From Halopiger djelfimassiliensis (GTDB lineage: Archaea > Halobacteriota > Halobacteria > Halobacteriales > Natrialbaceae): DNA of 64,000 nucleotides. Below the pieces are notes generated by a model. The model was not told the origin of the DNA. It was given only the letters and a program-made list of their open reading frames with translations, and did no database searches. The stretch covers positions 815,888 through 879,887 of the forward strand of contig NZ_HG315686.1 in the NCBI RefSeq assembly GCF_000455365.1. Reading direction: 5' to 3'. Below are positions 62,773 through 64,000 of this stretch, piece after piece (position 1 is the stretch's first letter; every line of letters begins with the position of its first letter). The position numbers and the translations under genes are program-made.

Positions 62773-62843
62773 GCGCGGATGGTCTAGTGGTAGGACCTGA
62801 GCCTTCCAAGCTCATGGCCCGGGTTCAAATCCCGGTCCGCGCA
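62773..62843 (+). tRNA. tRNA-Gly (anticodon UCC)
   Basis: GCGCGGA pairs with TCCGCGC to close the acceptor stem. The D-arm is GGTCTAGTGGTAGGACC, the anticodon arm is TGAGC-CTTCCAA-GCTCA (anticodon TCC) and the T-arm is CCGGGTTCAAATCCCGG. The 71-base gene has no intron and no encoded CCA. It has an AAACG-type promoter near 62748. The 289-base gap to the next gene holds no clear feature. Confidence 0.95.
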
Positions 62844-63132
62844 CTTCTCGACGAACGGACGGCGGAGAAAGTACTCGAGAGGGTTTTTCGGTCACCGTTT
62901 CAGATCAGTACAACCAGTTGTCTATTCCAAGCGTGCCCTGACGGTAACGGCGAATCCGCCGCTGACGACGGACTGAGAACTGGACAGTCGCTCGAGGGTA
63001 CTAACGGCAGCCACGGCGTCCCTGTTCGCTTCGAATCGTGGTGAGTTCGTGCCAGCAGCCGAACGATGCGGCGTCGAATCGTTCGTCCGGGTGCTGTCTA
63101 AGTTCAAAAAGGATGGCGAAAACAATAGCGGT

Positions 63133-64000
63133 ATGATAGCCATCGCTGGATCGAAAGGAGGGTGTGGCAAGTCCACCGTTACGCTCGGACTCGCCGAAGC
63201 GTTCGCCCGGGCTGACACACCCGCGATCGCCATCGACGCGGACAGACAACTCCCGAACCTGCATGTGATGACCGATCTCGACCGTGAGCCAACACTTGCT
63301 GTACTCGATCAAGGGAGGGACCTTCGGGAAATCGCACAGCAACATCCTCAGGAACCCAATGTCGGCGTCGTTCCTGCACCCAAGTCGTCGCAGTCGTTCG
63401 AGTTCAGTTCGCTTGAGGAATATGTCGATATTGACGGGCGACAAGTACTGATCGACTGTCCTTCCGGTGCCGGACCGGATGTCGTCGATCCATTGAGTCA
63501 AGCCGAGGGTGTGGTCATCGTTGCATCGGACACCGAACGGAGCCTGAAAGCTGCAGAAACGACGATTGAGATGGCTCGCCGACTCGGCGCTCCCATCTAT
63601 GGGGCCATTCTGAACAAATGTTCGGAGATCCCGACACCGGCGACCCGCTGGGAGGGTGTCCCAGTACTCGGATGTGTGCCCGAGCGACCATCACCGCTGT
63701 TGAACGATGAGGTTTCGCAAGCTTTCGACGAAATCGTCGAGCAGTTGGCCACACAATCACCAACTGACCGGGCACCACCGGAATACGCTGGTGATCGGCT
63801 CCCCACGGGAACCAACGAGATCGATCGACGGCTCGGTGGAGGACTTCCGGCCGGGACCATCGTCACACTCGTGGCGGATCCCGCGAGCCAGTCGGAACAG
63901 CTCCTGTATCGAGCTACCGGCGTCCGCGGAACGCTCTATCTCTCTACCGAGCAGTCACGGGAGAACGTTCGTCGAGCAATTGAGTCGACATCAATCGGGT
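63133..64000 (+). CDS. MinD/ParA-type ATPase with added RAD55-like segment, partial
   Basis: ATG 63133 follows an AAGTTCAAAAAGG TATA box by about 28 bases. The frame stays open to the end of the window (289 codons). Residues 1-200 are a MinD/ParA domain with the deviant Walker A GSKGGCGKST (about 6-15), DADRQLPNLHVM and LIDCPSGAGPDVVDPLSQAE as Walker B. After a linker the frame continues with RLPTGTNEIDRRLGGGLPAG (about 217-236), the typical opening of a KaiC/RAD55 RecA-like domain, but the P-loop there is degraded (VADPASQSEQLLY). It is a two-P-loop fusion, cut by the window end. Confidence 0.75.
   Translation, partial: MIAIAGSKGGCGKSTVTLGLAEAFARADTPAIAIDADRQLPNLHVMTDLDREPTLAVLDQGRDLREIAQQHPQEPNVGVVPAPKSSQSFEFSSLEEYVDIDGRQVLIDCPSGAGPDVVDPLSQAEGVVIVASDTERSLKAAETTIEMARRLGAPIYGAILNKCSEIPTPATRWEGVPVLGCVPERPSPLLNDEVSQAFDEIVEQLATQSPTDRAPPEYAGDRLPTGTNEIDRRLGGGLPAGTIVTLVADPASQSEQLLYRATGVRGTLYLSTEQSRENVRRAIESTSIG

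Follow-up and report, generated by a model that had tools for sequence, protein, structure and literature searches.

Does the gene that runs off the end of this stretch of archaeal DNA encode one protein in which a MinD-type ATPase is joined to a KaiC-like domain, and if so, what might such a protein do? The stretch (hereafter the window) covers 64,000 nucleotides of the 3.78-Mb genome of Halopiger djelfimassiliensis (G000:C3:815888-879887). The first 289 codons of the gene occupy 63133..64000 on the + strand. The ATG at 63133 opens MIAIAGSKGGCGKST, the start of the fusion protein; starting instead from the in-frame GTG at 63049 would lengthen it by 28 residues, and the alignment of relatives starts from the ATG. 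A tRNA-Gly(TCC) gene identified by ARAGORN lies directly upstream on the same strand (62773..62844, converted from L002:4661-4732, L002 being the window locus). The first-pass annotation described a MinD/ParA ATPase that is followed in frame by a KaiC/RAD55-like domain. The frame is open at 64000 and its stop codon is 422 bases past the window edge. The sequence beyond the window was obtained, and the last 140 codons, which together with the stop lie outside the window, complete the second domain. The whole gene (L002:5021-6310) thus encodes a single protein of 429 aa, as had been described, and the frame does not stop shortly beyond the window. Thirty-nine fused relatives align with the fusion at 40-75% identity. 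Although one related locus (L052) has decayed, and its MinD half there reads into the end of MinD1, the possibility that the fusion is a decaying gene, or an artefact of a frameshift, of assembly or of annotation, is already refuted by the relatives, with 58 fused rows in 57 genomes confirmed from their DNA and motifs conserved in both halves across 40 aligned sequences, and we give it practically no weight.

The N-terminal half (residues 1-200; 63133..63732, +) is a MinD/ParA ATPase domain by both Pfam and NCBIfam, with Pfam matches to CbiA (2e-12) and ParA (1e-11). When a profile of the fused relatives was compared with the PDB, MinD 1g3q was matched with an E value of 5e-20, the closest solved relatives being archaeal MinDs, and FleN was also matched. 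Foldseek likewise matched the model of the full fusion to MinD 1ion and 1g3q (TM 0.74 by target length). The deviant Walker A motif that had been read as GGCGKST is intact: GSKGGCGKS is encoded at 63148..63174 (+), with the signature lysine at K8 and the P-loop lysine at K13. In the 40-sequence alignment, K8, G9, G10 and G12 are invariant and K13 is conserved in at least 90%, L005 being the one exception to the P-loop lysine. D35, D37, N42 and the DCPSGAG switch are invariant or nearly so. The catalytic motifs of MinD are intact in the fusion. The N half is a relative of MinD and not a member of the archaeal MinD subfamily model TIGR01969, against which it scored 69.8 bits (curated cut-off 201.75). 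In the full-length model, the last MinD helix spans residues 192-207 and is followed by a short linker and then by the second domain.

Residues 222-415 match DUF7125 (PF23442; E 2.2e-47, 161.3 bits against a gathering cut-off of 29.1). The start of this domain, from residue 222 onward, is at 63796..64000 (+), and the rest is outside the window. The KaiC/RAD55-like opening TGTNEIDRRLGGGLPAG is present as first described. We modelled a lone DUF7125 protein from the same genome with AlphaFold2 (pLDDT 89.7, pTM 0.87), and the model has structural matches to SSO2452, FlaH (4yds, 4wia), KaiC and RecA, with Z scores of 20.6 for KaiC 8zn5, 20.2 for PH0284 and 20.1 for SSO2452. Therefore, DUF7125 has a RecA/KaiC fold. 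This excludes a second part of another fold, and together with the Pfam and profile matches it bears out the SIMIBI and RecA fusion that the first-pass annotation had proposed. The model of the full fusion has a pLDDT of 84.7 and a pTM of 0.53, and leaves the relative orientation of the two domains undefined. Against the ArlH model NF052589 the score was 21.6 bits, below membership (cut-off 215).

In place of Walker A, the DUF7125 half has ADPASQSE (63874..63897, +), which had been taken for a degraded P-loop. None of the 165 DUF7125 rows compared (162 distinct sequences; loci that repeated the same genes had been removed before counting) has a Walker A. At its place, 159 of the 165 have P-x-x-(Q/H/R)-x-E and 153 have the stricter P-x-x-Q-x-E, while the remaining six are close variants in which the glutamate is kept. 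The P-loop is indeed lost, but it is not randomly decaying: it has been replaced family-wide by a conserved motif.

Some match to the fusion protein was found in 386 of the 391 genomes of the class. The full-length fusion is present in at least 60 of these 391, namely in 49 of the 101 genomes of family f1 (which we take to be Natrialbaceae), 10 of f3 and one of f7, as counted by hand. The 60 genomes comprise 57 verified from DNA, G265, and G025 and G362 (from the match table only), and the figure is a lower bound, with one-stop rows only partly fetched. Among plasmids, there were six records and none covered 80% of the fusion. In 59 other rows, for example in Haloferax larsenii, MinD and DUF7125 are split into neighbouring genes on the same strand. 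Four of the 48 rows scored as solo (L085, L103, L126, and L151) are actually split pairs that the overlap rule missed. All 15 Haloferax genomes encode DUF7125, each with a MinD match just upstream (a partial or split match in two of them). Overall, PF23442 was above its cut-off in 151 of 294 genomes of the phylum, including genomes outside the class, with many of the matches partial; among 14 named control genomes, only H. volcanii was above the cut-off.

The lone DUF7125 of the window's genome (G000:C3:175575) has no neighbouring MinD and is near an FKBP gene. An FKBP gene is also beside the MinD/DUF7125 pair of Haloferax massiliensis, and in the named Natrialbaceae loci DUF7125 often stands alone. 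From this it seems that the lone gene represents the ancestral locus and that its MinD neighbour has been lost. The same genome has a third, divergent DUF7125 (L199, G000:C1:244160-244768) without Walker A, which ends in DHSRNI. One f7 genome (G141) carries a Natrialbaceae-like fusion cluster as well as its own split pair (L066 and L061), suggesting that the whole fusion cluster was transferred.

To which MinD does the N half correspond? Haloferax genomes have four main MinD types, and the MinD1 type (about 1e-46 or better) was found in 11 of 14 genomes (not in G266, G304, and G261). In G078, the order of the MinD genes and their spacing of 72, 262 and 1,068 kb fit the H. volcanii minD locus tags 0225, 0322, 0595 and 1634 given in the accessible part of PMC11588486. 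Therefore, the MinD neighbour of the fusion is the MinD1 orthologue and the partner of DUF7125 is MinD3; from gene spacing in other Haloferax, we infer that the MinD of the split pairs is MinD3 (HVO_1634). The MinD1 assignment is supported by DUF7857, which adjoins MinD1 in 19 of the 20 fused loci L200-L219 and in all 11 Haloferax MinD1 loci (L240-L250). DUF7857 and MinD1 form a conserved gene pair in the fused loci (L002:8658-9023) and in Haloferax. We also considered that the split pair might correspond to MinD2 and HVO_0596, an idea prompted by the conservation of the gene downstream and by the C-terminal contacts described in the accessible text of PMC11588486. It was rejected, since the Haloferax spacing points to MinD3 and the gene after MinD2 is an unrelated one of 184 aa. 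By orthology, the N half is a haloarchaeal MinD3-group ATPase, joined here to a KaiC-like pseudo-ATPase. In Haloferax, MinD2 and MinD4 influence where the motility machinery is located (PMC11588486, PMC11621097, as far as their accessible parts go). The accessible text of PMC11621097 reports that deleting all four minD genes resembles deleting minD2 and minD4, and that MinD3 and MinD1 are dispensable for soft-agar motility; in that part of the paper (2024), haloarchaeal MinD1 and MinD3 have no described function.

The genes downstream of the fusion point to a possible context. Two of them encode membrane proteins of 381 and 386 aa (TrkA1 and TrkA2); Pfam found nothing in the first, and TrkA-C in the second (27.5 bits, cut-off 27). 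A DUF7857 protein, MinD1, a GLUG-repeat surface protein and a small DUF7382 protein are also downstream, and we take the last, judged by eye, for a putative pilin. The pilus-like set consists of HerA-like, DUF7310, DUF7311, PilB-like (T2SSE, 6e-19) and PilC-like genes, the PilC-like match to T2SSF (19.6 bits) being below the Pfam cut-off of 25.2. We compared 21 tailless fused loci, that is, fusions without the C-terminal DTSRD tail discussed below, over about 20 kb (the window locus and L200-L219, our choice from 53 tailless rows). The MinD1 orthologue was present in 20, the TrkA pair in 14 and pilus-set genes in 14, two of which (L206 and L208) qualify solely through HerA-like genes together with small-protein or DUF7311 genes; in the other seven, pilus-set genes are missing from the fetched stretch. 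None of the 20 split loci and none of the five tailed fusions has MinD1, TrkA or pilus-set genes. Among 16 tailless fusions viewed at 8-10 kb (L169-L186; four genomes are shared with the set of 21), 12 have a second MinD, the exceptions being L170, L171, L182, and L183. In G253 (L170), MinD1 is about 58 kb from the fusion. Two side observations concern this neighbourhood. At the decayed locus L052, the MinD half of the fusion and MinD1 have both lost key parts at the same time. The window's genome also encodes two very similar repeat-rich surface proteins (L002:9807-11732, −, and L053:8412-10823, +); the first, with the GLUG motif by Pfam, is beside the pilus-like genes and the second is near the lone DUF7125.

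In f1, a close relative of TrkA2 (E<=1e-68) was found in 41 of 49 fused genomes versus 1 of 52 others (Fisher 8e-19; table 41/8/1/51, counted by hand), the cut-off having been set after the list was inspected, with G223 narrowly missing it. Five of the eight fused f1 genomes without a close TrkA2 have tailed fusions. Because the genomes are related and are not independent trials, Fisher values overstate independence, and thus we offer the counts as strong linkage and not as probabilities. The TrkA pair was beside HerA/pilus-set genes in seven fusion-free stretches (L268-L271 and L278-L280), and it was without such neighbours in L267 and L272, from genomes that have no fusion. Two of the seven stretches (L268 and L269) are from fused genomes in which TrkA2 is on another contig than the fusion, still beside HerA/pilus-set genes.

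The DTSRD tail of DUF7125 is present in all 59 split rows, in 45 of 48 solo rows and in 5 of 58 fused rows. In the N-domain tree, built by a quick method, all 58 fused MinD halves formed one clade (SH-aLRT 99), which grouped with 52 split MinDs (91) and was apart from 23 MinD1 rows. In the C-domain tree, from which 26 near-copies had been dropped beforehand, the 53 tailless fusions formed one clade (99/98) and the five tailed fusions were placed elsewhere, weakly. A single origin of the fusion is compatible with the trees, and domain exchange is also possible. We considered that the tail might dock MinD3 and become useless once the two are fused. This idea is weakened, because the tail is still there on the lone DUF7125 of the window's genome, in which no free MinD3 was recognised (one genome checked), and because the five fusions without pilus linkage keep it too. 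Tail loss tracks the MinD1/pilus locus, not the fusion itself. In non-fused DUF7125 proteins (L053, L054, L056, L058, and the Haloferax copies) the tail is nearly invariant as DTSRDIA, and it is of low confidence in the model.

The MinD half might instead be a ParA-type ATPase that serves DNA or another cargo, with DUF7125 as the cargo adaptor. The ParA and MinD families have the same catalytic motifs, and no segment of the fusion protein reaches the hydropathy cut-off for a membrane helix, both of which would suit such a role. However, no ParB-like gene was among those run through Pfam, and the neighbours that were found are membrane and pilus-like proteins, so a role in partitioning seems quite improbable. 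Another explanation is that DUF7125 works as a KaiC-like signalling hub that regulates MinD3 in general, with no particular connection to pili, and that the pilus linkage is an accident, in one lineage, of where the fused copy came to lie. This would account for the complete lack of pilus linkage among the split pairs and tailed fusions, and for the persistence near an FKBP gene of a lone DUF7125 that has no MinD neighbour. On the other hand, the linkage to MinD1, TrkA and pilus-set genes is seen in f1, f3, and f7 and survives several gene orders, in which the genes are on the same strand, convergent, or separated by pilus genes, and TrkA2 follows the fusion even across contigs. A general hub is a serious possibility that we nevertheless doubt. 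Pilus-set genes are missing from the stretch read in 7 of the 21 tailless loci and in all the split and tailed loci, so a role in pili need not be ancestral to the pair.

In sum, the fusion exists and has been conserved, and it gives a testable link between MinD3, MinD1 and pili. Its architecture implies joint action of MinD3 and DUF7125, and in one lineage the pair is connected to MinD1 and to pilus-like genes. Starting from the single frame, the MinD motifs, the RecA/KaiC fold without Walker A, the split genes elsewhere and the linkage of the locus, we tentatively prefer the following proposal, whose chance we put somewhat short of even. The MinD half would be an ATP switch whose cycle includes ATP-dependent dimers. 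The other half, DUF7125, would not hydrolyse ATP and would contact a cargo or partner as an adaptor, a role that ArlH, also KaiC-like, has on the archaellum motor. MinD1 would be a second ATPase and the TrkA-C membrane proteins would be the membrane anchor, and together they would determine where the pilus machine is placed or how active it is. The fusion may thus help to control where or when pili are built. The suggestion of a spatial regulator in the first-pass annotation is plausible, given the intact MinD half, the adjoining MinD1 and the often present type IV pilus-like genes; its idea that the second domain reads a signal is unsupported, and an adaptor that does not bind ATP fits as well or better. 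If DUF7125 is an adaptor, it would clearly exemplify a KaiC-type domain that was retained for its binding role although it no longer binds ATP.

In the accessible part of PMC4858521, FlaH and FleN/MinD-like ATPases are the most abundant regulators associated with type IV pili, KaiC-family ATPases are also predicted to be such regulators, and FleN/MinD is compared with FlaH; a MinD-KaiC-like fusion is not mentioned in that part. Neither a description of the MinD-DUF7125 fusion nor the name DUF7125 was found in the open-licence literature searched. The fusion could conceivably belong to a new archaeal positioning system, in which a MinD with a dead KaiC-like, ArlH-like adaptor acts with MinD1 and TrkA-C proteins to place or switch the type IV pilus motor, and we regard this wider claim as rather unlikely. 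If it were true, the FleN/MinD and KaiC-like regulators that have been predicted separately for archaeal pili would be united in one protein.

Several known systems resemble the fusion in part. In FleN/FlhG and CpaE/TadZ, a MinD-family ATPase is tied to a pilus-like or flagellar machine, as we propose for the fusion, and CpaE/TadZ are MinD-family regulators of Tad pili. To our knowledge, none of them has a KaiC-like domain, unlike the fusion. ArlH/FlaH, a subunit of the archaellum motor, shares the RecA/KaiC fold with DUF7125 (FlaH 4yds and 4wia), but ArlH binds ATP (according to the accessible part of PMC13286277) whereas DUF7125 is without Walker A. H. volcanii MinD4 (HVO_0322), which affects the position of archaella and chemoreceptors (accessible parts of PMC11588486 and PMC11621097), has a MinD domain with a large C-terminal extension like the fusion. 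By spacing, MinD4 corresponds to a long ORF of some 610-740 aa, and unlike the fusion, none of the nine such ORFs tested matched the DUF7125 profile. H. volcanii MinD2 (HVO_0595) and HVO_0596, likely one operon in the accessible text of PMC11588486, have a MinD gene followed by a small gene, as in the split pair. By spacing, MinD2 is the MinD of 256-286 aa, and the 184-aa protein after its Haloferax orthologue (L260:3691-4245, −), which probably corresponds to HVO_0596, is not DUF7125 and matched no Pfam family. The Haloferax MinD3 (HVO_1634) and its DUF7125 neighbour are two proteins, with a DTSRDIA tail on DUF7125, unlike most fusions, and the H. larsenii pair (L222) has no MinD1, TrkA or pilus-set genes in 20 kb, unlike the fusion locus. 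Nevertheless, the pair has the same two domains as the fusion, encoded adjacently on one strand, and the MinD halves group together.
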